DNA of 25,244 nucleotides from a virus: the IMG/VR virus record IMGVR_UViG_3300035181_001540, positions 1 through 25,244 of that record; one strand, 5' to 3'. Positions within the stretch are counted from its first letter, which is position 1; the number at the start of each line of letters is the position of its first letter. Under the pieces are notes generated by a model, which made no database searches, was not told the DNA's origin, and was given only the letters and a program-made list of their open reading frames with translations. Of this stretch, positions 1-21,935 are shown one piece after another. The position numbers and the translations under genes are program-made.

Positions 1-1
1 G

Positions 2-2704
2 CAGGGGATTTACGACAAGTATGCGAAGGAGCTGCAGCTATACCTAAACTCTCTCGGCGGGAAAGCTCGCAAAGACGCTCGCGGGCTGGACTGGACCGAG
101 GTCCCAACTCGTCCCGGAAAGCCTCCGCTAGCGTGGGGAGCTGCCGATCCGGAGCTAGTCAAATGGCTTGGACTGGGCGGGCTGATTGCGGGTATGGGGG
201 TTTACTCCTACAACCACCCGAAGGACTTTAACGCAGCACTCGCGACCGGACTGCTCAGCGCCTGGGCGGCTCGGAAGATTCTCCCTGGCGGAGAGCACGT
301 GGGTAAGATGCTTGATGACTCTTGGAATAGAGTCTTTCCCGAGCACGCATCGAGGGGAAGCGAGAAGGCTGCCGCGCATATGGGCCATCGACTGGCGGAG
401 GCAGCTCGTTCAGCCTCTACCTTTAAATGGGCGCAGGAAAAGCTCGAAGACTTTTTCAGCACTCGGAAAGAGGAGGGCTTGCCCTTTATTCTCAATTACG
501 AGAAAGGAAAAAAGCAAGCTAACCCAATGCTGGACGCTGTGGCAAAGAGCGTGCGTGAGTGGGGAGATAGGATATTTGAACAAGATGCTGCAAACGGGAT
601 TCAGTATGACCCGAGGGATAACTATATCGTCCACCAGTTCGAGGGAGACCCGGCGGCTGTTGCAAAACTTCTTGACTCAAAGTATGGGATTCGCTGGGGA
701 GATCCGTCCTTCTCCAAGGAGAGGCATTTCAAGTACATTGAAGATGCGCTGAAGTATATAGACCCAGCAACTGGCGAGCATCCCTTTAAACTTAAAACCG
801 ATAACCCTATAACTCTGATGCGGATGCGACAGGCTGCCTCTGATATGGCTGCTGCGAAGGTCTCAATCCTTAAAGACTTCGAGGGTGATGGACTTGCGCG
901 AAAGCTCGGAAAAGGGGATAAGCTCGGCCCAGGGGAGTTCGATTGGCGCAGTCCGAACGGGGATCTGTTTGCGGTCGGCCAGGATGTTAATCAAGTTCTC
1001 CACAACGCTTTCAAGGACTTCTCACTCTGGCTCGACCCCACAGCCCTCGGAGCTTCTTTCCGGGTAGGCATGGCGCTGAAGAGTGCAACTATTCCAATTA
1101 AACTGTTGAGTGCCTTTCACTTCGCTCACTTAACACTGGCGATGCCCTCCGCCACGACAATCTCCACGGCGGTGCAGTCACTTCTCGCGCACAACTACTC
1201 CCCGAAGAATTTTTTCGAGATAGCAAGTGGCGCGACGGTGGTAGGTCCGGCAGCTCAAATGTCTTACATGGGGCACCGCTCTATGGCAATGTACGAAGGC
1301 CGCCTGAAGAACCCCACAGTCCTCGACAAGGCAAGGCTGCAGCGTCAGATCGAGGGAGGAATGATTCCGTCGAGAGCTCAGGAGGAGGGACACGGCGTAG
1401 GAAACTGGGGGCATGCGGCGCAGCGCAAGTTTGTTCTTGCGGTGCAGGACCAGAAGTGGATGCGGGCGGGAGCATTTGCAGTGCCAGCGGCTGTGGGACT
1501 TGTTACCCACGGCTTCCTCGGGGCTTTTGTCCCGCGCCTGAAGCTCGGGGCCTATGACCTGATGGCTGATGCGGCGATCAAGAACGACCCCAGACTCGCG
1601 GTGGACGACACTGCCCGCGTGGAACGCTTGCGGCAAATCACGAAGGTCGTGGAGAGTCGCTTTGGGCAAATGCAATACAGCCAGAGGTTCTGGAACAAGC
1701 TCACGAAGGATGCGATGGTACTCTCTTTTCTCTCGGCAGGATGGCAGGCCGGGTTCCTCGACATGACAGTTGGGGCCGGAAAAGATCTCGGGAAGGCTAT
1801 TAAAGCGGGAGGCATTGGGGAATCCGCAAGGCTTGGTCTGCTTGAGCGCCCGCTGTTTCTTCCCGCCTACGCAGGGCAAACGGCTATTGTGGCTGGCCTC
1901 ATTACCTACATGATGACAGGAGAAGAGCCCGAGGGCATGGACTATCTCGCCCCGAGGTCTGGGACAGATATTGAGGGAAAGCCTGTGCGGCTTAACACTC
2001 CATTTTATACGCTAGAGGGGGCGAAAATATACAAGCACCTTGAGTCAGAAGGGCTTGCTAAAACTGCTCGCGACACCGTGGCAAATAAAATGTATGACTC
2101 GTATGAGGTACTTCGGATTCTTCTCCTTAACAAAGACTCGCAGGGACTGGAAATGTCGAACCCCGAATCATCGGCCATGCAGCAACTGGTCCAGCGCGGC
2201 TCGAGCGTGCTTCAGACTCTCACACCAATGTCGCTGGAAGCCGTAGAGCGCAAGGGCCTTGATAGCCTGGGGTGGCAGATGACGGCTATGGCAGGTTTCT
2301 CGCCAGCTCCGAATTACCTGGACAACACAGCGACAGAAAACAAAATCGATCAAGCCTACAGGAAAGAGGTCGGCTCGCACGAAATATCCTACGCGAAGGG
2401 AAAAGAGATCAGGGCCAGAGGAGACTATAAGGCGGCTCTTCGCGCTGGGAACGACGACAAAGCCGAGGCCCAGGCCGATGTGCTGCGAGATGACTTCGGG
2501 CTTCAGGAAAAAGACCTTGCAAAAATGCGGAAGAGTCTTCGAGACCCTCAAGCAATAACCCGCTTCAAGAATCTTTCCCCGGAGACACAAGCCCAGCTAC
2601 TGGACAAGATGCCGGGCGAGGAACTGATCGACTACCTTCGAGTAGCTTCTCCGAAGGCCCGTAAACTGTATTTGGAGAGTGAAGATGAAAGTTCTGATCG
2701 TTGA
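2..2704 (+). CDS. Large virion-associated protein, 3' part (partial)
   Basis: The reading frame is open from the left edge of the window, so the gene starts upstream and only the last 900 residues are visible; the first in-frame ATG (194) is not a convincing start because coding-type sequence continues before it. The protein is long, alanine-rich and largely helical, with hydrophobic stretches near the left edge (around LGLGGLIAGMGVYSY) and in the middle (around IPIKLLSAFHFAHLTLAMPS and FAVPAAVGLVTHGFLG). This composition and its place just before the lysis genes resemble the very large multi-domain virion or ejection proteins of podophages and some siphophages. I see no catalytic motif. The 3' end overlaps the next gene. 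The virion role is inferred from size, composition and position only. Confidence 0.7.
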   Translation, partial: QGIYDKYAKELQLYLNSLGGKARKDARGLDWTEVPTRPGKPPLAWGAADPELVKWLGLGGLIAGMGVYSYNHPKDFNAALATGLLSAWAARKILPGGEHVGKMLDDSWNRVFPEHASRGSEKAAAHMGHRLAEAARSASTFKWAQEKLEDFFSTRKEEGLPFILNYEKGKKQANPMLDAVAKSVREWGDRIFEQDAANGIQYDPRDNYIVHQFEGDPAAVAKLLDSKYGIRWGDPSFSKERHFKYIEDALKYIDPATGEHPFKLKTDNPITLMRMRQAASDMAAAKVSILKDFEGDGLARKLGKGDKLGPGEFDWRSPNGDLFAVGQDVNQVLHNAFKDFSLWLDPTALGASFRVGMALKSATIPIKLLSAFHFAHLTLAMPSATTISTAVQSLLAHNYSPKNFFEIASGATVVGPAAQMSYMGHRSMAMYEGRLKNPTVLDKARLQRQIEGGMIPSRAQEEGHGVGNWGHAAQRKFVLAVQDQKWMRAGAFAVPAAVGLVTHGFLGAFVPRLKLGAYDLMADAAIKNDPRLAVDDTARVERLRQITKVVESRFGQMQYSQRFWNKLTKDAMVLSFLSAGWQAGFLDMTVGAGKDLGKAIKAGGIGESARLGLLERPLFLPAYAGQTAIVAGLITYMMTGEEPEGMDYLAPRSGTDIEGKPVRLNTPFYTLEGAKIYKHLESEGLAKTARDTVANKMYDSYEVLRILLLNKDSQGLEMSNPESSAMQQLVQRGSSVLQTLTPMSLEAVERKGLDSLGWQMTAMAGFSPAPNYLDNTATENKIDQAYRKEVGSHEISYAKGKEIRARGDYKAALRAGNDDKAEAQADVLRDDFGLQEKDLAKMRKSLRDPQAITRFKNLSPETQAQLLDKMPGEELIDYLRVASPKARKLYLESEDESSDR

Positions 2705-4001
2705 TCCTATTGGCTGCGGGCTTGACCTAGCGCTGCGCTCGAAGCTCGCGGGGCATGATGTTAAGCTAGCCTGCGGCCCTCGCGCCGACAAGAAACCCTC
2801 GCGCATCGGAGATGGGCTGGTGACTCTCACAGGCGACTGGAAGAAGCACATGGGATGGGCAGACCTGGTGTTCATGACGGACAATGCTCGATGGATGGGA
2901 GACCTCGACTGGTATCACCAGAAAGGCTATCCCATTTTCGGGCCTACAAAGGCAGCAGCGGAATGGGAACTCGACCGGAAAGTTGGGATGAAGGTAATGC
3001 GGCAGTGCGGGATGGATATGATCCCCTCGACAGAGTTCTCGAACTACGACGAGGCGGAAGCGCTTGTCCGAGAAACCCTCAAGCGATATGTGTCGAAGCC
3101 TAATGGGGATAAAGATAAAGCACTGTCGTATGTCTCGAAGTCTCCTGCGGATATGTGCTACATGTTTGAGAGATGGAAAAAAGTGGGTGCTGCGCAGGGA
3201 GCGTTTCTTCTCCAGGAATTTGTGGGCGGAGTTGAAGTGGCTGTGGGTGGGTGGATGGGGAGTGAGGGATGGATCGGCCCTTGGTGCGAAAACTTTGAGC
3301 ACAAGAAACTCGGGAATGACAACACAGGCCCGAACACAGGGGAAATGGGAACGGTGCTGAAGTACACGGGGAAGAGCCAGCTGGCGGAAGAGCTTCTCAT
3401 TCCGGCGACGGAGATGCTGTTGGCCATCGGGTATATTGGATATGTTGATATATCTGTGATTATGGATAAGAAGGGAGGCCTTCGTCCGATGGAATGGACA
3501 ATGCGGCCGGGTTGGCCTCTCTTCAACATCCAGCAAGCGGTGCATCAGGGAGACCCGGTGGAGTGGATGGCGAACGCGCTTGAGGGAAGGGATACCCTGA
3601 AGGTGAAAGGGGATGTGGCCTGCGGGGTGGTGGTAGCAATCCCGGATTTTCCCTACTCGCATGTGACGCAGCAAGAGGTACATGGAATCCCGGTCTATGG
3701 GTTTGAGGACCTGGAGCACATCCACCCCGTTTCGATGATGGCGGGAAAAGCTCCTGCTATGCAAGACGGAAAAATTGTTGAGCAGGAATTGTTTGTTTCA
3801 GCCGGCGATTACCTGCTAGTGGCTAGTGGAACTGGGTCAACGGTAGACAGAGCGGTTTCGCGGGCTTACGCGCAGGTAAAGGAATTGGAAATCCCGAATT
3901 CTCCTATCTATCGAACAGACATTGGGAAAAGGCTGGAGGAGGACCTTCCGCTGCTGCAAGCAAAGGGTTTTGCAACGAGTGTTGTTTATGAGAGGAGCTG
4001 A
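2685..4001 (+). CDS. PurD-like ATP-grasp ligase (GARS family homologue)
   Basis: 438 residues. It aligns by eye along the whole of bacterial phosphoribosylamine-glycine ligase (PurD), an ATP-grasp enzyme of purine synthesis. Landmarks: GPTKAAAEWE (86-95; PurD GPxxAAxxLE), QEFVGGVEV (177-185; PurD EEFLDGEEA), FEHKKLGNDNTGPNTGEMG (PurD DHKRVGDKDTGPNTGGMG), a C-terminal YRTDIGKRLEED (PurD CRKDIGWRAIE). Two sites differ: the glycine-rich nucleotide loop (PurD ADGLAAGKG) reads PNGDKDKALS (139-148), and the metal/substrate motif (PurD EFNCRFGDPET) reads EWTMRPGWPLF (270-280), so an Asn, an Asp and a Glu are absent. A changed substrate or a non-catalytic role is therefore likely. ATG 2685 is preferred to GTG 2679 because GGAGAG at 2674-2679 is then 5 nt away. 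The gene overlaps the virion gene by 20 nt. No other purine gene is present. Confidence 0.85.
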   Translation: MKVLIVDPIGCGLDLALRSKLAGHDVKLACGPRADKKPSRIGDGLVTLTGDWKKHMGWADLVFMTDNARWMGDLDWYHQKGYPIFGPTKAAAEWELDRKVGMKVMRQCGMDMIPSTEFSNYDEAEALVRETLKRYVSKPNGDKDKALSYVSKSPADMCYMFERWKKVGAAQGAFLLQEFVGGVEVAVGGWMGSEGWIGPWCENFEHKKLGNDNTGPNTGEMGTVLKYTGKSQLAEELLIPATEMLLAIGYIGYVDISVIMDKKGGLRPMEWTMRPGWPLFNIQQAVHQGDPVEWMANALEGRDTLKVKGDVACGVVVAIPDFPYSHVTQQEVHGIPVYGFEDLEHIHPVSMMAGKAPAMQDGKIVEQELFVSAGDYLLVASGTGSTVDRAVSRAYAQVKELEIPNSPIYRTDIGKRLEEDLPLLQAKGFATSVVYERS

Positions 4002-4002
4002 T

Positions 4003-4425
4003 GTGAAAATCACTGTAGATAGGATTCATAAAGAGCCCGAGTACACTGTAGGGAAAATTAGCATTGACGGGGAACCGGCTGGATTCACCCTCGAGGACGC
4101 GGTAAGAGAAGTGCCCGGGCAGGCTGTTGAGACGTGGAAAATCGCAGGGGAGACCGCCATTCCGACCGGAACCTACCAGGTGATTATGAACTGGTCTCAG
4201 CGCTTCGGGAAAGTTATGCCCTTGCTGGTGGATGTACCAGGCTTCTCGGGGATTCGAATTCATCCAGGGAATACGGATGCGGACACCGAGGGCTGTTTGC
4301 TGGTGGGTCAGCACTGGGGCGGAGGAGATTGGATTGATGGAAGCAGACTAGCCTTTGGCCCGATTTACGGAAGGATTGAAGCGGCCGTTAATCGCGGAGA
4401 ACCTGTGATGATTGAGGTGATGTGA
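4003..4425 (+). CDS. DUF5675 family protein in the endolysin position
   Basis: 140 residues. It matches the DUF5675 pattern as I remember it: FTLED near the start, GETAIPTGTYQV, a run MPLLVDVPGFSGIRIHPGN, then TDADTEGCLLVG. The His, Asp/Glu and Cys in the last two motifs are plausible active-site residues, but I know of no established reaction for the family. GTG 4003 is preferred to ATG 3988 because GAGGAG (3992-3997) is 5 nt upstream. The gene starts 1 nt after the PurD-like gene and overlaps the holin-like gene as TGATG. It sits exactly where an endolysin would be, before a holin and spanins, and no other muralytic gene is in the window, so a cell-wall role is a reasonable inference. Confidence 0.8.
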   Translation: MKITVDRIHKEPEYTVGKISIDGEPAGFTLEDAVREVPGQAVETWKIAGETAIPTGTYQVIMNWSQRFGKVMPLLVDVPGFSGIRIHPGNTDADTEGCLLVGQHWGGGDWIDGSRLAFGPIYGRIEAAVNRGEPVMIEVM

Positions 4426-4655
4426 TGAAACTCATGGATATGCTTACAGAGAGCGATAACAGCACGGTTGATGCCGTTCGCGTGCTGGCGCTGGTCGCGG
4501 TAATTATCGGGCTGGCGCTGCAAATCTGGGTGGTGGTGCGCTGGTTCGGGCCGGCTCCGCAGCCGTTCGACTTTCAAAACTTTGGCATTGGCGTCGGCGC
4601 ACTGTTCGGCGGCGTGGGCATTGCGCTCAAGCTCAAGCCGGAGAGTCAAGCATGA
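4425..4655 (+). CDS. Holin-like two-span membrane protein
   Basis: 76 residues with two predicted membrane segments, about residues 17-42 (VRVLALVAVIIGLALQIWVV) and 53-70 (FGIGVGALFGGVGIALKL), joined by a short loop containing FGPAPQPFDF. Size and topology fit a small phage holin that would permeabilise the inner membrane at lysis. ATG 4425 overlaps the upstream stop as TGATG and has GAGG 7 nt upstream; a GTG at 4422 is in frame but less likely. Family-level identity was not recognised, so the call rests on topology and its place between the DUF5675 gene and the spanins. Confidence 0.65.
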   Translation: MKLMDMLTESDNSTVDAVRVLALVAVIIGLALQIWVVVRWFGPAPQPFDFQNFGIGVGALFGGVGIALKLKPESQA

Positions 4656-4747
4656 ACACAGCCGAGTTGGTAATGTTTGTTCTCGGAGCTGGGATTGGCG
4701 TTCCTATAGCCGCTATCTTTATTGTTTTGTTCTGGCTCAGGAGGTAG
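4652..4747 (+). CDS. 31-residue single-span membrane protein
   Basis: A very short ORF that starts with an ATGA overlap on the holin-like gene and ends inside the AGGAGGTAG that serves as ribosome-binding site for Rz. The product is almost entirely one membrane helix (from ELVMFVLGAGIGVPI to FIVLFW), closed by LRR. Tight coupling on both sides argues that it is translated. It could be a second holin, a pinholin or an antiholin-like modulator. No family is recognised. Confidence 0.6.
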   Translation: MNTAELVMFVLGAGIGVPIAAIFIVLFWLRR

Positions 4748-4753
4748 GATGAA

Positions 4754-5203
4754 ATGGAGCAATTTGCTATCTATGCCCTTGTGGTCCTGCTTGTTTGTGG
4801 TTCTGTTGGCGCTGCTAGCTACACTCGTGGCCACGCTAATGCTACGCGCACTTGTGCTCTTGATCGTGCGGCGGCTGTTAAACGCGCGACAAGCCAGGCG
4901 CAAGAAATTGCAAGACAGGATGCGGAGGTATCCGCCGGATTTGAAGTCACCCGCACTCGAGTCCAGACCGTTTATCGCGAAAAAGCCGTGGAGGTAGTCC
5001 ATGAAATTCCCCAAGATTGTGCTCGCTGCGCTGTTACCCCTGCTGGCCTTGGGCTGCTCAACCGAGCCATATCCGGCGCAAGTGCAGCGCCCGCCGATAC
5101 CGGCAAACCTTCTGAGCCCCTGCGAACGCCCGAGTCCACTTCTAGCCGGGACATTCCCGGAGGTGGCCGCGAAGTTGGTGGAGTCGAGCGGCAAGCTCTC
5201 TGA
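4754..5203 (+). CDS. Rz: Rz-like inner-membrane spanin (i-spanin)
   Basis: 149 residues. It has an N-terminal membrane anchor at residues 4-22 (FAIYALVVLLVCGSVGAAS), then a periplasmic alpha-helical/coiled-coil stretch (about 35-80, rich in Ala, Gln, Glu and Arg), a CARCAVTPAGLGLLNRAI segment reminiscent of proteobacterial phage Rz proteins, and a Ser/Pro/Gly-rich tail. The Rz1 gene lies entirely within or past its 3' part in another frame, the classic embedded Rz/Rz1 layout. AGGAGG at 4739-4744 is 9 nt from ATG 4754. Together with Rz1 it would fuse inner and outer membranes in the last lysis step, which implies a Gram-negative host. Confidence 0.82.
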   Translation: MEQFAIYALVVLLVCGSVGAASYTRGHANATRTCALDRAAAVKRATSQAQEIARQDAEVSAGFEVTRTRVQTVYREKAVEVVHEIPQDCARCAVTPAGLGLLNRAISGASAAPADTGKPSEPLRTPESTSSRDIPGGGREVGGVERQAL

Positions 5204-5249
5204 GTGCGCGGAGAAACATGCGGCGCTGGTGAAGGCTGTAGCACAGTGA
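5001..5249 (+). CDS. Rz1: Rz1-like outer-membrane spanin lipoprotein (o-spanin)
   Basis: 82 residues. It begins with a basic start and hydrophobic signal (MKFPKIVLAALLPLLALGCS) ending in ALGC, a slightly off-consensus lipobox with the lipidated Cys at residue 19. A proline-rich segment follows (QVQRPPIPANLLSPCERPSP), typical of Rz1. It is shifted in frame and starts inside Rz, with GGAGG 7 nt before its ATG. It runs 46 bases beyond the Rz stop. The embedded position, lipobox and proline content together make the call firm. Confidence 0.82.
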   Translation: MKFPKIVLAALLPLLALGCSTEPYPAQVQRPPIPANLLSPCERPSPLLAGTFPEVAAKLVESSGKLSECAEKHAALVKAVAQ

Positions 5250-5260
5250 AGGTAGTTCTT

Positions 5261-5285
5261 ACGCCCCTTATCGGCGGCGTTAAGC
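5261..5285 (-). repeat. attC-like half site 1
   Basis: On the minus strand the last codons of the ORF at 5280-5525 run into GCTTAAC (matches RYYYAAC), with the TAA inside the box. It is followed by GCCGCCGATAAGGGGCG, which folds into a short stem with a bulged G. The same core recurs in the next two spacers. I find no matching GTTRRRY box before the end of Rz1, so this looks like a truncated end of the array. Confidence 0.45.
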
Positions 5286-5525
5286 ATCAACGAACGTACC
5301 GGAATCATCTTCAAAAGAAAGAACCCACAATTTCTTGTTTCCTTTCTGCGCCTGAATCCAATCCCATGATTCTGTAATCTCATTTGGTTCTTCTCCTTCC
5401 GTTTCCACAAAACAGCGCCCGCCCATACAACCTGGCCATCCTTCTTGGCGCTCTAGTATTGTCACAAGCTCCGCGCATGTCATACGTTGCGCGTTCCATT
5501 TTTGGGTCCAGTGGTATGTTTTCAT
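5280..5525 (-). CDS. Hypothetical cassette-type protein
   Basis: 81 residues, not recognised. It is rich in Trp and acidic residues, with no membrane segment, and has several Cys (TCAEL, GCMGGRC). The coding sequence is more A/T-rich than the neighbouring phage genes. There is no good Shine-Dalgarno sequence before ATG 5525, only AGGCATCAG, and the TTAGGC box of the attC-like spacer ends 5 nt before the start. The TAA stop falls inside the next attC-like box. Short leader plus stop in the box is the arrangement of an integron gene cassette. Function unknown. Confidence 0.6.
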   Translation of the reverse strand: MKTYHWTQKWNAQRMTCAELVTILERQEGWPGCMGGRCFVETEGEEPNEITESWDWIQAQKGNKKLWVLSFEDDSGTFVDA

Positions 5526-5530
5526 CTGAT

Positions 5531-5609
5531 GCCTAATAAAAGTTTCAAGCGGAGCGCGCGCCCCTTATCGGCATTGCGGGGCGTAGCGCCTGTTAGCTGG
5601 GCGTTATAC
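5531..5609 (-). repeat. attC-like recombination site 2 (79 bp)
   Basis: Read on the minus strand it starts with GTATAAC (5603-5609), which holds the TAA of the upstream ORF, and ends with ATTAGGC (5531-5537), 5 nt before the next ORF start. Both ends approximate RYYYAAC and GTTRRRY, each with one mismatch. The interior holds GCCGATAAGGGGCGCGCG, shared with sites 1 and 3, and CGCGCTCCGCTTGAAACT, nearly repeated near 6390. Length fits attC elements. No integrase is in the window, so this is a structural resemblance, not proof. Confidence 0.5.
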
Positions 5610-5870
5610 GACTTCATAAGTGGCCTCGAAGATGGCAGGTTTGCATGGGTAAAATTCACCAGCTACGCCTTTAATTATCCAGTCGCCGACACTTGCTATA
5701 TGCGAACCCTCAAGTGTCGGAATCGTAAGAACACCATTTGTCCATGTAGCAAATTCTTTCCCATTGGTGTGCTGACCTTCGTTAATCCAGTGCAATAAGG
5801 CGTAAGTACCTTCGTCGTTTGAATACAAGCGAGCCTCAATTACTACTGGTTTTTTTCTAAATTTTGCCAC
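5604..5870 (-). CDS. Conserved small phage protein (AKFRKKPVVIEA family)
   Basis: 88 residues. The start (AKFRKKPVVIEARLY) and end (VGDWIIKGVAGEFYPCKP then FEATYE) match a small conserved protein I know from many tailed phages, of unknown function. GTG 5870 is chosen because the family normally begins directly at AKFRKKP and GGAG lies 6 nt upstream; ATG 5882 would add four residues and overlap the previous gene. The preceding ORF stops 1 nt upstream, so the two are translationally coupled. The TAA stop is embedded in the GTATAAC box of attC-like site 2. Confidence 0.8.
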   Translation of the reverse strand: MAKFRKKPVVIEARLYSNDEGTYALLHWINEGQHTNGKEFATWTNGVLTIPTLEGSHIASVGDWIIKGVAGEFYPCKPAIFEATYEVV

Positions 5871-5871
5871 G

Positions 5872-6099
5872 TCATTCTCCATTAAAATACAGTCGCTCTG
5901 CGTCAGAAGGTGTTCCCCAATGCTTACGCATCAGTGCTTCGAGCTTGTCCAGTGCATCTTGCGAGTTCGTGGCCTTTACTATTAGATTGGTCGGGAGATT
6001 CCAAGCTGGCATAACCGCGACCAGTACGTCGCCTTCCCACTGTGTTTTGATTTTCATGGGCATCAGTACAATATGCTCAATAACTTCACTTCGTTTCAT
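5872..6099 (-). CDS. Hypothetical small protein
   Basis: 75 residues, not recognised. ATG 6099 is preferred because GAGG lies 6 nt upstream; an ATG at 6120 would place the start inside the attC-like spacer. The product looks like a small soluble alpha/beta protein (KIKTQWEGDVLVAVMPAW then NSQDALDKLEALMRKHWG). It begins 12 nt after the GTTAGAA box of attC-like site 3 and is coupled to the next ORF, so the two appear to share one cassette-like unit. Confidence 0.6.
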   Translation of the reverse strand: MKRSEVIEHIVLMPMKIKTQWEGDVLVAVMPAWNLPTNLIVKATNSQDALDKLEALMRKHWGTPSDAERLYFNGE

Positions 6100-6111
6100 G
6101 TCGTTCCTCAC

Positions 6112-6167
6112 TTCTAACATTGCGCATCCAGCTTGGTCACGCGCGCCACTTATTGGCGGCGTTGGGC
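6112..6167 (-). repeat. attC-like recombination site 3 (56 bp)
   Basis: On the minus strand it begins with GCCCAAC (6161-6167, perfect RYYYAAC) and ends with GTTAGAA (6112-6118, one mismatch to GTTRRRY). Inside, CGCCAATAAGTGGCG forms a 5-bp stem and matches the CGCCGATAAGGGGCG core of sites 1 and 2. The upstream ORF ends inside the site, so its last residues are encoded by it, as seen in real cassettes. The downstream ORF starts 12 nt beyond. Confidence 0.5.
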
Positions 6168-6361
6168 GACATGAGTGCTGTTATCTGCGCAGCCAGCAAG
6201 ACGGCTTCGACTTCTTCCATGCTCACGTTTTCACCATATCGCTTACAGGCGGCCTTAACCGCTCGCAGAAAAATACACGAAAGTATCCACCCGTTAGCGT
6301 GCTCGTCACTGTCTGCCAATGGCCACAATGCCGTTTCGTTCAACTCAACAATTTCATCCAT
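6137..6361 (-). CDS. Hypothetical cassette-type protein
   Basis: 74 residues from ATG 6361, chosen over longer in-frame starts because GGAGA is 5 nt upstream. The product is helical and acidic at the start (MDEIVELNETALWPLADSDE), with a YGENVSMEEVEAVLLAAQ segment. The last residues (SPNAANKWRA) are encoded by attC-like site 3. It starts 16 nt after a GTCGGGC box that resembles a fourth attC end. No family recognised. Confidence 0.55.
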   Translation of the reverse strand: MDEIVELNETALWPLADSDEHANGWILSCIFLRAVKAACKRYGENVSMEEVEAVLLAAQITALMSPNAANKWRA

Positions 6362-6362
6362 T

Positions 6363-6563
6363 TCATTCTCCAAAAAGCCCGACAGTAGTTTCAGGCGGAG
6401 CGCGGAACAGCTGGCGCATCGGTTGCCAGTTGGTGTTGCCACTTGGCTTTGCAATGCACCCCATGCAGCGCAGCACGCGCTCGACCGTGTTCTTGTGGCT
6501 GGCATTGCAGGTAGCACACGTTCTTACCACAGTGCCTACCCACCGCGCGCCACGCGCAGCCAT
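6363..6563 (-). CDS. Possible small Zn-ribbon-like protein
   Basis: 66 residues; it overlaps the end of the upstream gene by 28 nt and ends 2 nt before the next start. It has CATC and, 16 residues later, CMGC, a spacing that could bind zinc. No clear ribosome-binding site precedes ATG 6563. It could be translated by coupling, or be an accidental open frame through the degenerate attC-like half site. Confidence 0.38.
   Translation of the reverse strand: MAARGARWVGTVVRTCATCNASHKNTVERVLRCMGCIAKPSGNTNWQPMRQLFRAPPETTVGLFGE
6377..6405 (-). repeat. Degenerate attC-like half site 4
   Basis: The minus-strand sequence CGCGCTCCGCCTGAAACT followed ten bases on by GGGC matches the end of site 2 (CGCGCTCCGCTTGAAACT ... 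GGC) at 17 of the first 18 bases. GTCGGGC at 6377-6383 is one base from GTTRRRY. The ORF at 6137-6361 starts 16 nt further on. No convincing partner box is visible upstream. Confidence 0.35.
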
Positions 6564-6985
6564 TCTTCGTAGCTGGCGGTGTTGCTGCCAAACGCGCTGG
6601 CCTTGTTATCCACCAGCCACTGCGCCAGTTCTTCGGGCGTCTCGAAGGCGGGGCTGATCGGCGTACCTTCGCTGGTGTCCTCGTACATCATCAGGTGCGT
6701 GCACTGCTCGGCAGGCCAGTCGGGCATGTAGTCGTCCCTGTGCGGGCGCTGGCTGCTGTACTGCTCGTAGGTCATGGCGCGGGCTTCGGGATAGGTGCAG
6801 TAGTCTGGGCGCCAGCCGACCTTCCACTTCGCGCACTCCTCGTCCCACTCGTCCACGCGCGCCTGGTAGCAGTCGGCTGGAGCCAGCGGCTTGTACTGCT
6901 CCACCATGCGTCCGGTGCAGTAGTCGGGCACCTGTTTCTTCGGGTGTTGCCAGTCGACCGGCACGTGCCTTACTTCTCTTCCCAT
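6536..6985 (-). CDS. Conserved phage protein (MGREVRHVP family)
   Basis: 149 residues. The start MGREVRHVPVDWQHP, the central YMPDWPAEQCTHLMMYE and the TSEGTPISPAFETPEELA block belong to a widespread tailed-phage protein of unknown function. ATG 6985 is selected over an upstream in-frame ATG because AGGAGA lies 6-7 nt upstream and the family begins there. It overlaps the previous gene by 16 nt. It is the first clearly standard phage gene to the right of the attC-like spacers. Confidence 0.85.
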   Translation of the reverse strand: MGREVRHVPVDWQHPKKQVPDYCTGRMVEQYKPLAPADCYQARVDEWDEECAKWKVGWRPDYCTYPEARAMTYEQYSSQRPHRDDYMPDWPAEQCTHLMMYEDTSEGTPISPAFETPEELAQWLVDNKASAFGSNTASYEEWLRVARGG

Positions 6986-7488
6986 GTCGTCTCTCCTGTG
7001 GCGCACGGATGCGCTTTACGCTCAAAAGAACCTTGCGCCTGCATCGCTTCGAGCTCCCTAACTTTTCTCATAGCAGTAGCTAGTTCAACCTGAAGCGCCT
7101 GGTTTCGGGCTTCCAGGGCGCGATTAACTTCCTGAACGCGGCGAAGTTTTTCTCCGGTAGACTCGTAGGCGAATGGCATGTTTGATACTCCTTTAGAAGT
7201 TTGAGCGCTGCTCCGGCTAACTGGCTCGGTCAGGCCGCTTATTATCGCAGCTGCACTTTCGGGGTGAGTCGCACACCACGCTGATAAAGTACCAATATCA
7301 TTTAAGTCGAGCACATGTTCTAGGAGAAGCTCGGCTTGAGCGGCAGTAAGCAAGTTTGTGCCGTAGGGCCAGCTGTCACTAAAGGCGTCTGCCGCCTCCT
7401 TGTCAAAATAAATATGACAGTCTGGCCTGAAGTCCCTAGGCAATTTCCAGCTCAAAAATCGACCAATCATCTGCTTTGGCACTTTCAT
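6970..7488 (-). CDS. Conserved phage protein with C-terminal coiled coil
   Basis: 172 residues. The N-terminal part (KVPKQMIGRFLSWKLPRDF, then WPYGTNLLTAAQAE) matches a small phage protein of unknown function found in many genomes. From Met104 the sequence changes to a heptad-rich helix (LRRVQEVNRALEARNQALQ), a likely coiled coil. A strong AAAGGAG precedes Met104 (7177-7179) by 8-9 nt, so a second product of 69 residues, or a fusion of two once-separate genes, is possible. ATG 7488 has GGAG 7 nt upstream and starts 1 nt after the upstream stop. Confidence 0.78.
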   Translation of the reverse strand: MKVPKQMIGRFLSWKLPRDFRPDCHIYFDKEAADAFSDSWPYGTNLLTAAQAELLLEHVLDLNDIGTLSAWCATHPESAAAIISGLTEPVSRSSAQTSKGVSNMPFAYESTGEKLRRVQEVNRALEARNQALQVELATAMRKVRELEAMQAQGSFERKAHPCATGETTWEEK

Positions 7489-7489
7489 T

Positions 7490-7723
7490 TCAGTCTCCTA
7501 TCTTTTCGTAAAGTTTAGTCTGTCTGAACCCGCTGGACTTTAACAGTCCCTGGGATTCGGCCACTCGTAGCATGTCATAGAGGTTTAGGGGTTGCGGCTT
7601 AAGAATTGCCGTGGCCTCTTGCGCGGTGAACTGGGGAGGAAGCTGCGCCAGCAGAGCTTTATTTCGCTTGATGGACTCCGCCCGCTTCCGGGCATTTTGT
7701 CTTGAAGCTTGGGGTAGGATCAT
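7490..7723 (-). CDS. Hypothetical small basic protein, possible HTH
   Basis: 77 residues, basic N-terminus (MILPQASRQNARKRAESIKRNK) and a central FTAQEATAIL followed by LNLYDMLRVAESQGLLKSSG, a helix pattern compatible with a winged-helix or HTH fold. It starts with an ATGA overlap on the upstream gene and ends 1 nt before the next. Function unknown; DNA binding is only a suggestion. Confidence 0.65.
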   Translation of the reverse strand: MILPQASRQNARKRAESIKRNKALLAQLPPQFTAQEATAILKPQPLNLYDMLRVAESQGLLKSSGFRQTKLYEKIGD

Positions 7724-7971
7724 TTAAGTTTCTCCAGTACAGGTTTAAGACAGTTGCACTTGCCTTCGCATTCATAATCCCCGTCACGCCAGCGGGCTTT
7801 ATGAAAACGAACAGCTCGTTCGGTTACTCCCAGCCGAAGCGCGATCAAGCCCGTCTGGCGGTTACGCTGAAAGAAAGCCCATAGGCAGCAATACCCTAGG
7901 CCGTCAGTGATGAGGTGTTTGAGAGAGGGGGAAGTGTTGGAGTAGCCGAGGAGGTGGCGGTAGCTTGGCAT
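7720..7971 (-). CDS. Small HTH protein
   Basis: 83 residues. TGLIALRLGVTERAVRFHKA (about 39-58) is a good helix-turn-helix segment of the kind seen in small phage proteins. A Cys pair follows (CEGKCNC), perhaps binding metal. ATG 7971 is preceded by GAACC and a leader shared with the gene at 17.8 kb. It lies downstream of the helicase-like gene with a 36-nt gap and overlaps the next gene as ATGA. It may regulate late leftward genes; this is inference. Confidence 0.7.
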   Translation of the reverse strand: MPSYRHLLGYSNTSPSLKHLITDGLGYCCLWAFFQRNRQTGLIALRLGVTERAVRFHKARWRDGDYECEGKCNCLKPVLEKLK

Positions 7972-8006
7972 GATAGGTTCACATAATGGATGGGTTATAA
8001 GAACAC
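7969..8006 (-). promoter_or_regulatory. Repeated leader element A (start region of the HTH gene)
   Basis: The 38 bases ending at this start codon match 28 of 38 bases of the leader of the gene at 17600-17818, including GAACCTATCATG and TAACCC. It contains an A/T-rich TTATAA and TTATG. It could be a promoter, an operator or a common translation leader. Confidence 0.45.
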
Positions 8007-8007
8007 A

Positions 8008-9201
8008 CTAGTCTTTTCCAACATACGCCAGTATCATCTTACCGTTTCGCTGCACCAGCTCGAGATACCCCGCCTTAATGGCTCCGCTCACGATTCCCTC
8101 GAAATCCCGCGCATCTGGAAAAGCGGTATGAAGATTGCGGTAGCACTGCTCGTAGGGAGCCTCTCCTGCCCGCTTAATGTAGGCAATGAGGCGATCAGCC
8201 TGCATCGACGTTTCACTCTTCCCGATACGGGAAAAGACCTGAGCAAAGTCGGCCTCCGTTGCTTTGAGCATAATCTCCGCGAGGATCAGATCGTCGACTG
8301 TGATGATTAGGGCGTCGCGCTGGGAGGCGGCAAGAATCATAGCAAGTTTATGGAGGTGAGTTTGCTTGCGCGCAACATAACCCTCGAAGCGTTCGTCAGG
8401 GTAATCGGTGGAGGATGTTTTCCAGTGTTTCAAATACCACGCCTCACCCCATGTGCGAGCTTCCGGAGATAGGATGTACTCCCCGCAAAGGGAGGTTGCG
8501 ATGTGTTCGAGATCCTGGATTAATTTCTTGCGCGTCTCTGTGGTATCTTTCGGAAAGTTATACTTGGGGTAAGCGACGAAGTGCTCCTTCGCCTCCGCAT
8601 AGACGAAGATGCAGCGAGATGTTAGGCCCCCTCCCACGGTCGAGGCGGGCATGTTCTCTGCAATCCAGTGGGGGGTTGTGCACCCGAGGAGATTGATCCA
8701 CGGCCCCTCCACCACATCGTTCCCCGAGGTCTTAGTCTGCTTCTCCAGTTTCTTCCGGCCGTCCCAGAGGTCGATGAAAAGATTAACCATCTCTTTGTTA
8801 TGCGGGTCGATGAGGTTGCCGAGTTCAGAGGCGATGAGGTTCAGTGGACTCATCGGGTAGTACTCTCCCTCGAACTCGAAACTCTCACACGAGGCCGCGA
8901 AGGAAGTGACCAGGGATTGCCAAGTCACCACATCTGGGCCGAAACGAATGCCGGGGATTTCCCGGAGAAAGGACTCAGCCATTCCGGCTGTAGTGGACTT
9001 GGAGACAATCCCAGGCGGTGCAACGAAGATAATGAAGAAGTTGGGAATCCACCGAAAGGCTATCTGGTCCATCCAGACTTTTTTCCGGAGAACCCCGGAG
9101 ATAGCCCACACAGCTGCCCAAAAGTGCATTAACTTCGGAGCTTCGGTGTGAGCCGCCAGTGCCACATAGGCATCAATCCAGGAGGGGCAATGGCGGGCCA
9201 T
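8008..9201 (-). CDS. Phage helicase-like ATPase (DUF3987-like)
   Basis: 397 residues. Residues 52-70 (IPNFFIIFVAPPGIVSKST) form a strand plus P-loop-like segment in which the usual Gly before Lys is Ser (SKST). LNLIASELGNLI (120-131) would be the Walker B/acidic strand, with Glu126. This resembles phage ATPases annotated as DUF3987 or helicase/primase-like proteins, which usually keep the changed P-loop. A C-terminal helical part includes DDLILAEIMLKATEADFAQV and may be a winged-helix domain. It starts 1 nt after the polymerase stop (TGAgATG), so the two are coupled and presumably act at the fork. A DNA-unwinding role is inferred from context. Confidence 0.65.
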   Translation of the reverse strand: MARHCPSWIDAYVALAAHTEAPKLMHFWAAVWAISGVLRKKVWMDQIAFRWIPNFFIIFVAPPGIVSKSTTAGMAESFLREIPGIRFGPDVVTWQSLVTSFAASCESFEFEGEYYPMSPLNLIASELGNLIDPHNKEMVNLFIDLWDGRKKLEKQTKTSGNDVVEGPWINLLGCTTPHWIAENMPASTVGGGLTSRCIFVYAEAKEHFVAYPKYNFPKDTTETRKKLIQDLEHIATSLCGEYILSPEARTWGEAWYLKHWKTSSTDYPDERFEGYVARKQTHLHKLAMILAASQRDALIITVDDLILAEIMLKATEADFAQVFSRIGKSETSMQADRLIAYIKRAGEAPYEQCYRNLHTAFPDARDFEGIVSGAIKAGYLELVQRNGKMILAYVGKD

Positions 9202-9202
9202 C

Positions 9203-11668
9203 TCAGCAATCTCCCCAGGACACGTCCGAGGTGTTGATGCCGACGGGGATGATGAGAGGGTCGTCGTAGGGAATAGCTACTCGAGAGACTCCTTTAATCC
9301 GCTCGATCATCTCGGCTTTGCGGTGGGAGGGGAACTGCCCCGCGAGCGAGTCATGAACTTGGATTAGAACCTGGACTTCGGGGATATGCTCATAGATATT
9401 CATCCAGATTCGGTTGATGTAACAGCCGACTGTGGATTGTGGAACCCAGGCAAGGGCTTCTGGGAGCACTCCGTCGAGGCGGTCAAAGATGTGCCAGCGA
9501 TAGCCAAACTTATTGGAGACGAAGTGGTAGCGATTAATCTGATCGAGAGTTCGATCGTGCCATCTCTTGATACCTGGATGCGCAGCAAACCAGGCTTTCT
9601 GAGCGCGGTCGATTTCGTGAATTCCTCTGCCAGTGTTTGCAGCAACTGTTCGCGCGCCTCCTCCGTAGTTAGTGGCATGACAAAAGACCTTGGCGAACTC
9701 TCGCTTGTGCTTTCGCGGGCCTCGGTGGTCAGGGTACTTAGGATGCGTTTCAACCAGTTCTTCATATGGAGGCGGCTCCTGTCCGTCAATCGAGTAGACA
9801 TTTAAAAGGTGTATATCAACGCCCATGCGCAGGGCGGCTTTTAGTTCCTCGTCCTCGGACTCCCAAACGACAACCTGAAGGTCTGCGCGGTCGAGGTCCA
9901 TATCGAAGAAGGTGAAGCCGGGGTCTGGAACATACATGGAGCGCATGTTGGGAAGGTTGAAGGTCATCCCGCGAGCTTTGGCCTTGCCTATTGATTTTGA
10001 TTTCTCGGAGGGGATGTTCTGGAGGTTGGCTCCGCCGCCGAAGGCGTTTTCGCTGGAGGACAGGCGATACGAGTAAGGTGCGCTTTTACCGCCAGCATTG
10101 CCTCCGATGTTATAAGAACAACGCATACGCTGGTCAACGTCAAGACGAGCAAGAATAAAAGTAGACAGAAACACCCCAAGAGTTCGCAGATCGGAAATTG
10201 CATTAATGATGGGGGCAAGGAGAGGTTCCTTCTTTTTAATTGCTTGGAGGGCTTCGTCGTCACAAGTCAGGTGCCCAGGGATACCTTTTTTCGCGCGAGT
10301 CATCTGGCGCGGAGCTCCGAGATCGTCGTAGAAGAGTTTGACCATCTGGACAGGGGATTTCGGATTAATGGGATGGCCGAGGACTTCGGTGAGGAAATCC
10401 GTGCGCGAGTCGATGGCCTCCTGAACCTCCATAGCAAGGGCATTCCGACGAGCTTGGTCAACTCGAATGCCTCTGGTCATGGCCTGCAAGACGGGCCAGA
10501 ACAGGCGCTGCTGGAATGCCTCAACCTCCGCCAGACCAAGAGAGCCGATGGTTTGGATAAGGGCTTCGCCGACTTCACGAGTGCGCACACAGTCGGTACA
10601 GTTATAAGCCCACAGCACATCTTCGGATTGTTTAATCCCCCAGGTCTTTCCGTCATCTTTCCAGAACACTGGGTGCGGGGAATAGAGAGAGGAGAGAAAG
10701 CCAAGGCCCTTGGGGAGCGCGACGAAGGCGGTGTGCTGGGAGATCATAGTATCCTGCGCGCCTCGCGGGATGAAGTGCCAATGGCGATAGGTGTACTGCG
10801 CATCGTAGAGGCCGTTTTGCCACCTTACCTGAGCGTTGGCGTGGGCGAGGAGGCGGTAGAGGGCGTACACGATCTCCGCCTCTTCCTCAATTTCCCAATA
10901 CCCATCGCGACGCTCGATGCACATGAACGGAATGCAAAGGGCTTGACTGGTCGACCACGAGAGGCCGGCGCAAGCGATATGACCTGCGCGAGTCTCGAGG
11001 TCGAAGTCAATCCACATCGGGCCGCGCTCGACCTCAGCCTGTAGGGCCCAGAGTTGATTCATAACCTGCTGGAATCCCGGACGAACCTGGAAATGCCAGT
11101 CCGGAGGATTGGAGTATTCCGGGCTTTCACGCTCCCGCGCGGCTCTTCGCAGGTCATTGAGCATGAGGGCGCGCGAGTCCCACTGCGCCAGCACCGCGCG
11201 AGGAGACAGGGTTGGAATTAGCTTAGGCTGCGTGGGGTTGCCGTTGACCGAGAGGCAAGAGCCCCGCCACTTCGCCACACTCGTTGCGCCGGTAAGAGCC
11301 CACATAGGGGCATTTCCCAGAGTCACGATGATATTAGGCTTGACGATGGAGATTTCCACGAGTAGCCTCTCGTAGGAGGCCATGAAAGCTTTCGTAACGT
11401 GCGCATCCCGGAAGGGGAGGAGGTCAGCTCGCCAGTCCTTTTTCTTGGTAATGATCCAGGAAGAGAGATCCCCACCAGCCGGGCGGGTGTTGGCGAGATT
11501 GGTGAGGTAGCACTCTGATCGCATCAGGCCCGCTTCGTGAAGAAGGCGGTTGAGCTCCTGGCCAGAGGCTCCGTTGAAGGGAGTTTGAGAACGCTCGTCT
11601 TCGTAACCAAAACATTCTCCGATTAGCATAATGCGCGCCGGAACCGGACCTTCGCCAAATCTAGACAT
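9203..11668 (-). CDS. polA: DNA polymerase, family A, with N-terminal UDG-like domain
   Basis: 821 residues in three parts. Residues 1-165 resemble uracil-DNA glycosylase family 4/5 (MLIGECFGYED, TPFNGASGQELNRLL, TLGNAPMWALTG) but lack the N-terminal Cys pair of the Fe-S enzymes, and the HP motif reads LSPRAVL. Next is a 3'-5' exonuclease (DFDLETRAGH, NGLYDAQYTY, YNCTDC). From about 400 is a Pol I palm: motif A DLDRADLQ with Asp591, O-helix REFAKVFCHATNYG with Arg656, Lys660, His664 and Tyr668, and motif C VHDSL with Asp773. His664 aligns with E. coli Phe762. There is no 5'-3' exonuclease. A UDG-Pol fusion is known from SPO1-type phages. The gene starts 5 nt after the methyltransferase stop. 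Confidence 0.9.
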   Translation of the reverse strand: MSRFGEGPVPARIMLIGECFGYEDERSQTPFNGASGQELNRLLHEAGLMRSECYLTNLANTRPAGGDLSSWIITKKKDWRADLLPFRDAHVTKAFMASYERLLVEISIVKPNIIVTLGNAPMWALTGATSVAKWRGSCLSVNGNPTQPKLIPTLSPRAVLAQWDSRALMLNDLRRAARERESPEYSNPPDWHFQVRPGFQQVMNQLWALQAEVERGPMWIDFDLETRAGHIACAGLSWSTSQALCIPFMCIERRDGYWEIEEEAEIVYALYRLLAHANAQVRWQNGLYDAQYTYRHWHFIPRGAQDTMISQHTAFVALPKGLGFLSSLYSPHPVFWKDDGKTWGIKQSEDVLWAYNCTDCVRTREVGEALIQTIGSLGLAEVEAFQQRLFWPVLQAMTRGIRVDQARRNALAMEVQEAIDSRTDFLTEVLGHPINPKSPVQMVKLFYDDLGAPRQMTRAKKGIPGHLTCDDEALQAIKKKEPLLAPIINAISDLRTLGVFLSTFILARLDVDQRMRCSYNIGGNAGGKSAPYSYRLSSSENAFGGGANLQNIPSEKSKSIGKAKARGMTFNLPNMRSMYVPDPGFTFFDMDLDRADLQVVVWESEDEELKAALRMGVDIHLLNVYSIDGQEPPPYEELVETHPKYPDHRGPRKHKREFAKVFCHATNYGGGARTVAANTGRGIHEIDRAQKAWFAAHPGIKRWHDRTLDQINRYHFVSNKFGYRWHIFDRLDGVLPEALAWVPQSTVGCYINRIWMNIYEHIPEVQVLIQVHDSLAGQFPSHRKAEMIERIKGVSRVAIPYDDPLIIPVGINTSDVSWGDC

Positions 11669-18671: not shown

Positions 18672-18836
18672 CTAACCGGCCAGTGCTAGGCCCAGCCCGA
18701 GCCCGAGGAGGAACATCGCGAGAAGCCCGAGGCCGATTGCGACAACCGCATCCGGGTCTCGGCCGAAGTGAGCGTCCATCCCGGTTGCCTCTCGGTAGGT
18801 GCGTGGAAAGCGGAGGGTTTGATTAGAATCCATCAT
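18672..18836 (-). CDS. Small protein with C-terminal membrane segment
   Basis: 54 residues. A soluble N-terminal half (MDSNQTLRFPRTYREATGMD) precedes one strongly hydrophobic helix (VVAIGLGLLAMFLLGLGLGL). AAAGGAG lies 6 nt before ATG 18836 and overlaps the stop of the upstream gene. It could be a membrane-anchored early protein. Family unknown. In the 97-bp gap after it, GAGAGGG (18634-18640) and CCCTCTC (18653-18659) form a hairpin. Confidence 0.7.
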   Translation of the reverse strand: MMDSNQTLRFPRTYREATGMDAHFGRDPDAVVAIGLGLLAMFLLGLGLGLALAG

Positions 18837-18847
18837 TTGGGGCTCCT

Positions 18848-19018
18848 TTAGTCGAGAAGGTCAAACACATAATCGGGTTCGAGGCCAAACCAATCCGCGA
18901 GCACCTCTTCCGGGTCATCCCCTTCGAGCACCTCTTCCCTCGCCCTTGCGATCTGCTGAAGGGCTTCATCCTTCGAAATCCCATCCCGTTCCATTAACAC
19001 TTCGAGTAAACTTTTCAT
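18848..19018 (-). CDS. Small acidic phage protein, tandem copy 1
   Basis: 56 residues: MKSLLEVLMERDGISKDEAL at the start, GDDPEEVLADWFGLEPDYVF near the end. It matches a known type of small acidic phage protein (DPEEVL then GLEPDY), function unknown. AAGGAG overlaps the upstream stop. It is clearly paralogous to the next ORF (same length, same blocks). Confidence 0.75.
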   Translation of the reverse strand: MKSLLEVLMERDGISKDEALQQIARAREEVLEGDDPEEVLADWFGLEPDYVFDLLD

Positions 19019-19029
19019 TTCTTTCTCCT

Positions 19030-19200
19030 TCAGCCGATAAGAGCATATAGATAATCTGGCCCGAGGCCAAACCAGTTCTCGAGCACTTCCACTGGGTCGT
19101 CCCCCTGGAGCACCTTTTCCTTCGCCATCGAGATCTGCCAGAGGGCTTCGTTCCGTGAAATCCCGTCTCGCTTTATCAAAAATTCAATTAAATTTTCCAC
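19030..19200 (-). CDS. Small acidic phage protein, tandem copy 2
   Basis: 56 residues from GTG 19200, with AAGGAG 7 nt upstream. KRDGISRNEALWQI and GDDPVEVLENWFGLGPDYLY align without gaps to copy 1, though DNA and protein have diverged well. An older tandem duplication is likely. Function unknown. Confidence 0.72.
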   Translation of the reverse strand: MENLIEFLIKRDGISRNEALWQISMAKEKVLQGDDPVEVLENWFGLGPDYLYALIG

Positions 19201-20020: not shown

Positions 20021-20127
20021 GGCAAGGGACGTTGCACGAATGCAACATCAGGTGTGCGGTAGTAGCTGTATCATCATCTCAAAATGCCCATTTCATCAAT
20101 GAAATCAATGGGTTACGTCAATGTGCT

Positions 20128-20288
20128 GTAGTAGTAGCATCATCATCATCTTGCCATACCCTCTCGCCCTGGTTTTGTAAAATGTGTAAGAAGAAAAAAA
20201 AAAAATTAATACACAACCTATTATAACCCGCCCTATTTTGGTGCAAGGGGAAAGGGGGGGCAGATGATGATGATGATGATGATACTAC
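20128..20288. repeat. Triplet-rich inverted repeat around an A-run
   Basis: GTAGTAGTAGCATCATCATC (20128-20147, continuing to 20150) is the approximate reverse complement of the (GAT)7 plus ACTAC segment at 20263-20288. A partial third copy is at 20059-20078. The arms enclose about 110 bp including the A-run and the leftward promoter. Confidence 0.55.
20220..20246 (-). promoter_or_regulatory. Sigma70-like leftward promoter
   Basis: On the minus strand TTGCAC (20241-20246), 15-bp spacer, TATAAT (20220-20225). The -10 is perfect; the spacer is short. It points toward the long leftward block beginning at 19807, about 400 bp downstream. Confidence 0.5.
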
Positions 20289-20321
20289 GACCGCACGCGA
20301 CAATGGGCCAAATTGGGACGC

Positions 20322-20362
20322 AAAAAGGGCGGGCATAGGGTTATGTGCCTTAATGCCCGCCC
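20322..20362 (-). terminator. Rho-independent terminator
   Basis: Minus strand: GGGCGGGCAT ... ATGCCCGCCC (10-bp perfect stem, arms 20353-20362 and 20327-20336) followed directly by TTTTT (20322-20326). It lies 46 bp after the stop of the gene at 20409. An outer arm pair (AAATTGGG at 20310-20317 with CCCAATTT at 20365-20372) flanks it and could make a larger cruciform. Confidence 0.8.
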
Positions 20363-20408
20363 GCCCCAATTTGGGCCGTTATGGCCCGTTTACGGCCCGC
20401 CCGGCGGC

Positions 20409-21222: not shown

Positions 21223-21290
21223 GTTCATGCTCCAAGCCGGGACAATTCCCGTCAAACCGCCTGTCACGCGGCTTGCCGTGTGTTGCCTGA

Positions 21291-21494
21291 TTAGTCCTCT
21301 TCGATCACTACTTCCAACACGCCTTTCGTCACGTCGTTAAACCATTTCCGGGCAGTTTCGTTTTGCGCCCGATCGCGCCACGCAAGCTCACATTCCAGAA
21401 TCAGACTAAGGCAGCGTTTCAGGGTAAATTCGTGAGCGATTTGCAAGGCGAGCTTTTCGCTAACCTCTTCGCCGTTCATGTAGTAGGTCGTCAT
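21291..21494 (-). CDS. Small protein, tandem paralogue 3
   Basis: 67 residues: MTTYYMNGEEVSEKLALQIA at the start, then AWRDRAQNETARKWFNDVTK and an acidic end. Closely related to the gene at 21732-21935, more distantly to 21496-21708. AAAGGG precedes the ATG. Function unknown; the acidic C-terminus is shared. Confidence 0.72.
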   Translation of the reverse strand: MTTYYMNGEEVSEKLALQIAHEFTLKRCLSLILECELAWRDRAQNETARKWFNDVTKGVLEVVIEED

Positions 21495-21495
21495 G

Positions 21496-21708
21496 TCATT
21501 CCCTTTCGTTGGTTGGTTCAGTCGCTATCTCGAGCACGCTTTCCGGCGCGTTACTAAGCCATTCCCAAGCGGCCTCGGTCCGCGCCCTATTGCGCCACAC
21601 GTCTTCTGTCACGAACAGCACAAAGCCGGGCTTCTGGATAAGCTCGAGGACACGCTCCAGAGCGCGGCTCTCGCTGATTTCTTCGCCATCCATGAAGTAG
21701 ATTTTCAT
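21496..21708 (-). CDS. Small protein, tandem paralogue 2
   Basis: 70 residues: MKIYFMDGEEISESRALERV, then WRNRARTEAAWEWLSNAPES. Same block order as its two neighbours (Y-MDGEE-SE--AL, W--R-R-E-A-W). AAAGGA precedes the ATG. It is the most divergent of the three. Confidence 0.72.
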   Translation of the reverse strand: MKIYFMDGEEISESRALERVLELIQKPGFVLFVTEDVWRNRARTEAAWEWLSNAPESVLEIATEPTNERE

Positions 21709-21731
21709 GTCAATTCCTTTCGTGGGCCGGG

Positions 21732-21935
21732 TTAATCGTCTTCAGTCACTATCTCGAGCAGGCTTTCCGTTACGTTGTTAATCCATTCCCGCGCGGCTTC
21801 GTCCCGCGACCGAGCGCGCCACGCGGTTTCGGTATCGGCCAGCTCGAGGCCGTGCTTCAGGGTAAACTCGCGGGCAATCCGCAAGGCGCGTTTTTCGCTT
21901 ACCTCTTCGCCATCCATGTAGTAGTAGGTCGTCAT
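21732..21935 (-). CDS. Small protein, tandem paralogue 1
   Basis: 67 residues from ATG 21935, with AAAGGA about 7 nt upstream; the longer in-frame ORF to 22277 reads back through repeat-rich intergenic DNA and is rejected. MTTYYYMDGEEVSEKRALRI and AWRARSRDEAAREWINNVTE match paralogue 3. It is the first gene of the leftward cluster. Confidence 0.75.
   Translation of the reverse strand: MTTYYYMDGEEVSEKRALRIAREFTLKHGLELADTETAWRARSRDEAAREWINNVTESLLEIVTEDD

Follow-up and report, generated by a model that had tools for sequence, protein, structure and literature searches.

Integrase-less arrays of attC sites (CALINs) have already been reported in phages, virulent ones included, complete integrons are found in some temperate phages, and IntI1 recombined five of the six phage sites tested (Qi et al. 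2023, PMC9892861). The phages that we describe share with those CALINs both the lack of an integrase and the presence of DNA methyltransferase cassettes. They differ in that the published cases are single genomes of isolated phages, whereas here several haplotypes of one phage can be compared. A second point of reference is the reverse integrons of Treponema, whose intI reads toward attI and whose cassettes run in the usual direction (PMC3607928, PMC7691350). In these, as in the phage arrays considered below, intI and the cassette genes are transcribed in one direction. Finally, T4-type phages have mobile regulatory stem-loop cassettes, for which homologous recombination has been proposed as the mechanism; we know of no attC boxes in them and of no link to integrons. 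The likeness lies in the stem-loops between shuffled small phage genes, but the arrays described here have attC boxes and match attC models, and thus do not fit the T4-type class.

The locus lies in a 25.2-kb virus record, analysed in full and referred to here as the window, that encodes a large terminase, a DNA polymerase, a primase and an Rz-like spanin. Judged from its sequence, the region at 5255-6410 is very probably a phage-borne integron cassette array without an integrase of its own, in other words a CALIN, partly decayed in this particular genome. Given this decayed array, together with the different genes found between sites of the same type in near-identical phages, phages appear to trade cassettes via the integron system.

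A core motif, CGCCGATAAGGGGCG, is found on the minus strand of the region, exactly at 5262-5276, with one mismatch at 5559-5573 and with two at 6144-6158. Allowing up to three mismatches, there are five matches in the window against 1.25 expected, a count reached by 1 of 100 shuffles, and three of the five fall within 900 nt. Read on the same strand, the boxes are GCTTAAC (5285-5279), GTATAAC (5609-5603) and GCCCAAC (6167-6161), and the partner boxes ATTAGGC (5537-5531) and GTTAGAA (6118-6112) give spans of 79 and 56 nt. The first-pass annotation had proposed an integron-like array on the basis of spacers with a shared core and box layout, lengths of 79 and 56 nt, A/T-richness relative to the flanks and no integrase nearby. 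All of this holds: the cores and paired boxes are in place, the box coordinates return the two lengths, and GC content is 0.47-0.49 over 5251-6250 versus mostly 0.53-0.64 nearby. Searches for a tyrosine recombinase or IntI were negative for the window and for a 42.8-kb relative (G006), neither of which matched the TIGR02249 or PF00589 profiles. Two of the proposed spacers are incomplete. The right half of the first is present but its second box is missing, and the fourth, described as degenerate, is likewise a half site only (Table 1). There is also an extra, decayed box between ORF2 and ORF3, and the array therefore originally held at least four cassettes. Rfam had no match in 4900-7000, BLAST with a consensus site returned nothing from phage and plasmid collections, and the only DNA similarity of the region to isolated phages was a short segment within the phrog_419 gene, which is a common one.

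Table 1. Sites and genes of the candidate cassette array (window coordinates).
Position	Strand	Feature	Basis or detail
5262..5285	+	attC right half (L'-R'), CGCCCCTTATCGGCGGCGTTAAGC	R' box GTTAAGC 5279-5285; left half not found
5280..5525	-	Cassette gene 1, 81 aa	ORF; stop codon within R' box
5531..5609	+	attC-like site 2, chimeric	R'' GCCTAAT 5531-5537, R' GTTATAC 5603-5609
5604..5882	-	Cassette gene 2, 92 aa, phrog_419 (function not known)	PHROG match, 109 bits
5872..6099	-	Cassette gene 3, ~75 aa, no family match	ORF with upstream GAGG
5902..5908	+	Decayed R' box GTCAGAA (GTTAGAA in L009), boundary of gene-3 cassette	Edge of homology to L009
6112..6167	+	attC-like site 3, chimeric	R'' TTCTAAC, R' GTTGGGC; comparison of arms
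6137..6361	-	Cassette gene 4, 74 aa, no family match	ORF; attC arm encodes the C-terminus
6377..6404	+	attC left half, right end of array	R'' GCCCGAC, L'' TTTCAGGCGGAGCGCG; same half site in L006
7013..7034	+	Probable remnant of another attC left arm (GCGCTTTACGCTCAAAAGAACC)	Match against L068

The composition of the array becomes clearer when its parts are traced in related contigs. The string of the first half site recurs in L003, L016 and L002-L006, where it makes up the right half of full attC sites. Gene 1, which had no Pfam or PHROG match, recurs in L006 at 96% identity, behind another attC. The left arm of site 2 is the same as in an attC of L009, with 28 nt of identity to L009/L008, and site 3 combines an L009-like left arm with an L006-like right arm. 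No DNA match to gene 2 was found in L006, L009 or L068. Gene 3 has a 91% relative in L008, and its overlap with gene 2 follows the loss of an attC once located between them. A copy of gene 4, 97% identical, sits behind a full attC-like site in L006. Where the window retains the probable remnant past the array's right end, a full attC (6858-6944, 44 bits) is present in L068.

Other features of the window are recorded here for completeness. Beside the lysis genes, and common to all haplotypes, is a 440-aa protein (2679-4001) without a PHROG match, which looks ATP-grasp-like by eye. Small ORFs occur in tandem, as two copies at 18833-19196 (182-nt spacing, 73% alike) and as three copies at 21285-21924 (~220-nt spacing, 62-82% alike), and a low-complexity stretch with an ATGATG run lies at 20118-20370, where regional GC is ~0.44.

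To compare the sites with attC of bacteria, we gathered bacterial intI-linked arrays from the class of a Tepidiphilus MAG and chose 42 attC sites, from which a first covariance model was built with zero phage sequence. A second model (R2), built on 100 bacterial-array matches, gave the same picture. These models, and before them a box-and-helix score, replaced a first arm-pairing score that did not separate the arrays from shuffles. In the sister phages the first model found three sites in L006, seven in L068/L013 and four in L009 (the fourth weak, E 0.32), with further sites in L002-L005 and L016. Scores reached 44 bits in three phage contigs with ~96% identical flanks, and all 29 of the covariance-model matches listed sit on the array strand. 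L006, L009 and L068 each carry the two or more covariance-model attC per array by which a CALIN is recognized. That a phage-free model detects full sites in near-identical phages bears out the proposal of an integron-type cassette array inside a phage.

The window's own sites are another matter. The first model returned a single weak site there (5531-5609, plus strand). With R2, site 2 scored 16.9 bits (E 0.0041 in a 3-kb stretch and 0.11 across five loci, rough values from a short calibration), and site 3 scored 9.1 bits, which is very weak. The attC covariance search thus gave clear sites in the sister phages but not in the window itself. Sites of the attC type have unpaired, extrahelical bases, an expectation that fits the two extra bases on the L''-side arm (AAG[C]GGG[A]CGCG vs CGCG CCC CTT). 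Bottom-strand folding of L068 8397-8464 and 6858-6944 left the R boxes paired, with z -3.7 for each. The bottom-strand fold anticipated for the window's spacers did not appear: folded as single strands, they were not clearly better than shuffles. Because of the weak scores and the folding, we regard these sites as remnants and not as demonstrably functional attC; they are chimeric or truncated, and probably inactive.

Bacterial integrons such as that of the Tepidiphilus MAG contig L016 resemble the phage arrays in the sequence and structure of attC and in the length of the cassettes. The core is exact within a full attC of L016 and of the phage contig L003, both of which have intI. Among 300 genomes of the order of the Tepidiphilus MAG, that MAG alone was positive for the core. 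Two of three genome matches, in Oscillospiraceae (L014) and Sphingobium (L015), had no attC boxes and were judged to be chance.

Exchange of cassettes is suggested by comparison of the haplotypes, all of them metagenomic, as are all phage sequences used here. The motif GCCCCTTATCGGCGGCGTT is present in five viral contigs. L006 and the 42.8-kb contig L008/L009 are ~96% identical to the window within 2392-5265 and 7509-11304, and diverge from it across most of 5266-6420. Genes 1 and 4 are common to the window and L006, gene 3 is common to the window and L009, and the haplotype L068 has none of genes 1-4 by DNA. In other words, the window, L006, L009 and L068 have flanks that are ~96% identical and different cassettes in the same slot. 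Related phages with the region swapped at the boxes were the test that the first-pass annotation had called decisive, and such swaps are what these near-identical phages display, with whole cassettes, delimited by R' boxes, gained or lost. Two 48% relatives of a flanking protein (L011 and L012) were of no use as empty sites.

In shared cassettes, homology often begins or ends at the integron cut, G|TTRRRY. Homology between the window and L006 over gene 1 begins at CGGC|GTTAAGC, that between the window and L009 over gene 3 begins at GC|GTYAGAA, and that between L006 and L009 over a methyltransferase cassette ends at GGCGTT. An otherwise dissimilar viral contig, L070, shares one cassette with L009 and L068 at 83-86% identity, with R' boxes at its bounds; here homology begins at TTAGGC or TGCGTYAGG, and in the L068 comparison it stops at GGCGTTA. 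Overall, 13 of 16 homology edges fall in attC and 6 of the 16 lie within 5 nt of the G|TT cut (p = 5e-8 and 6e-6 relative to the array share, for edges that were hand-classified and are not independent). The remaining edges are inside attC arms or loops, or in a methyltransferase gene.

The array of L006 also holds a Mom-family gene (PF25680, 129 bits), two N6_N4_Mtase genes and an RNA ligase gene. In L006 (array 1-4860), L009 and L068 the methyltransferase cassettes have shared ends and different middles, as would result from exchange of the part for target recognition. Very short sites consisting of two R boxes alone (CTGCTAACTAGGCGTT) occur at L006 2582-2604 and L009 13996-14020, where L068 has a full attC.

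Could the spacers be derived from attC and yet have been swapped without any action of IntI, through recombination (homologous or phage-encoded) at repeated hairpins? We consider this unlikely, although it is the most serious of the alternatives. Homologous recombination would also give edges such as the 7 of 16 that lie inside attC arms or loops, sites 2 and 3 of the window are joins of two arms, and the phage has no integrase. Counter to this, the 6 of 16 edges at G|TT share only ~1-11 nt, attC boxes and polarity are kept across many unrelated contigs, and related phages encode IntI next to such arrays. Less probable still is that the swapping is only apparent and reflects misjoins of short-read assembly at repeated attC sequences. 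The recurrence of attC arms of 20-45 nt among contigs and the resemblance of both window sites to two-arm joins speak for such misjoins, but different cassettes with long flanks recur in no fewer than two further assemblies (3300035661, and 3300036715 with two contigs), and several junctions share <12 nt, less than the word sizes that assemblers use. A last alternative is that the spacers are ordinary conserved hairpins, terminators or regulators, that resemble attC by chance. Hairpins are frequent between small phage genes, and the window sites do score weakly, but this explanation is barely credible given the full attC scores of sister phages under a phage-naive model, the same core in attC adjoining intI, and cassette-sized presence/absence among near-identical phages.

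Returning to the cassette array reading, the orientation of the genes relative to attC sets these phages apart from bacterial integrons. Because attC is nearly palindromic, the gene strand had at first been taken as the attC strand. The covariance models and the intI-linked arrays refute this. The attC polarity of the array is that of the plus strand, antiparallel to genes 1-4 on the minus strand, and the boxes formerly called first and second therefore swap roles. For example, the L006 site at 3655-3706 scores 37.5 bits with R2 on the array strand vs 13.3 on the opposite strand.

Gene orientation was assigned for each attC-to-attC interval from ORF length, start codon and Shine-Dalgarno signal. 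In bacterial integrons (nine loci) the genes are parallel to attC in 57 of 64 intervals and antiparallel in 7, whereas viral genes are mostly antiparallel: 38 antiparallel and 2 parallel intervals in the set picked by sequence similarity, and 29 and 7 in contigs picked by their encoded IntI. Pooled, and with a repeated record excluded, 62 of 71 viral intervals are antiparallel and 9 parallel; ORF length alone gives 35 antiparallel and 8 parallel for viral arrays. By contig majority, 16 viral groups are antiparallel and 1 is parallel, compared with 9 parallel bacterial loci (p 3e-6), counts in which some contigs are related, the first viral set was chosen by similarity and short ORFs are open to miscalling. 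L070 has two arrays of opposite polarity, and the genes are antiparallel in both. Among previously described phages, TJE1 has genes parallel to the two attC that we detected, unlike those here, and P12002L had no match with the covariance model. The records behind L085, L070 and L076 (G392, G379 and G385) are phage-like with 7 to 15 attC each, and G392 and G379 each have two arrays of opposite polarity.

Although the phage of the window is without intI, some of its relatives encode one. Full-length IntI were found in L003 (468 bits) and G388 (460 bits), which in a tree of 25 rows, a small sample, are sisters (100/98) and adjoin the Tepidiphilus IntI. Searching with both recovered 20 viral loci, these two among them, so that intI is present in L003, G388 and ~18 further viral loci. 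Of the 54 attC matches in these loci that are on the opposite strand from intI, 50 are upstream of it and point away, as in bacteria, and the cassette genes mostly run toward intI. Proteins encoded in the same records include terminase, portal and virion proteins, as well as phage integrases near IntI. L098-L116 (IMG/VR), L003 and G388 have a related group of IntI, often near a phage integrase, with antiparallel arrays upstream. This group is absent from Qi et al. 2023 (PMC9892861). Relative to attC polarity, then, the direction of intI is the usual one in the phage arrays and it is the cassette genes that are inverted. The Treponema type is distinct because there intI, not the cassettes, is inverted. 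No description of antiparallel phage cassettes or of the phage IntI group was found in the literature searched, which included few subscription papers, and the antiparallel architecture, like the turnover of cassettes at population level, looks new.

Cassettes would enter and leave such arrays when IntI recombines the folded, single-stranded bottom strand of attC at G|TT. For phages without intI, the enzyme may be supplied in trans, either by an integron-bearing host, as the first-pass annotation had proposed, or by a temperate phage that co-infects the cell and encodes IntI itself, two capture routes that we regard as equally possible. The genes are presumably expressed by the leftward (minus-strand) transcription of the phage, from their own ribosome-binding sites. 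As they are antiparallel to attC polarity, expression from an integron Pc promoter is not expected. Chimeric and half sites may have arisen through later recombination or deletion between attC arms. A speculative rationale for the antiparallel layout is that, during transcription, the non-template strand would then be the attC bottom strand. The phages probably benefit through rapid turnover of small accessory genes, among them the DNA modification genes (Mom, DNA methyltransferases) of the sister arrays.

Looking across all of these loci, we lean toward the view that phages hold an integron branch of their own. This would comprise a related IntI group in temperate phages, and inverted-gene arrays, with or without integrase, whose genes are read as part of the phage operon, in the direction of intI and along with it. 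The cassettes would form a phage-adapted pool, rich in small and DNA modification genes, that is exchanged between phages during infection. The layout, with genes antiparallel to attC and reading toward intI, is the reverse of the textbook one, and the arrays tie phage DNA-modification (counter-restriction) genes to integrons. If the system is active, its cassettes need no Pc promoter, and phages would be both vehicles and users of integron cassettes. Site-specific cassette exchange, instead of illegitimate recombination, is a concrete and testable way in which phages could turn over genes rapidly.
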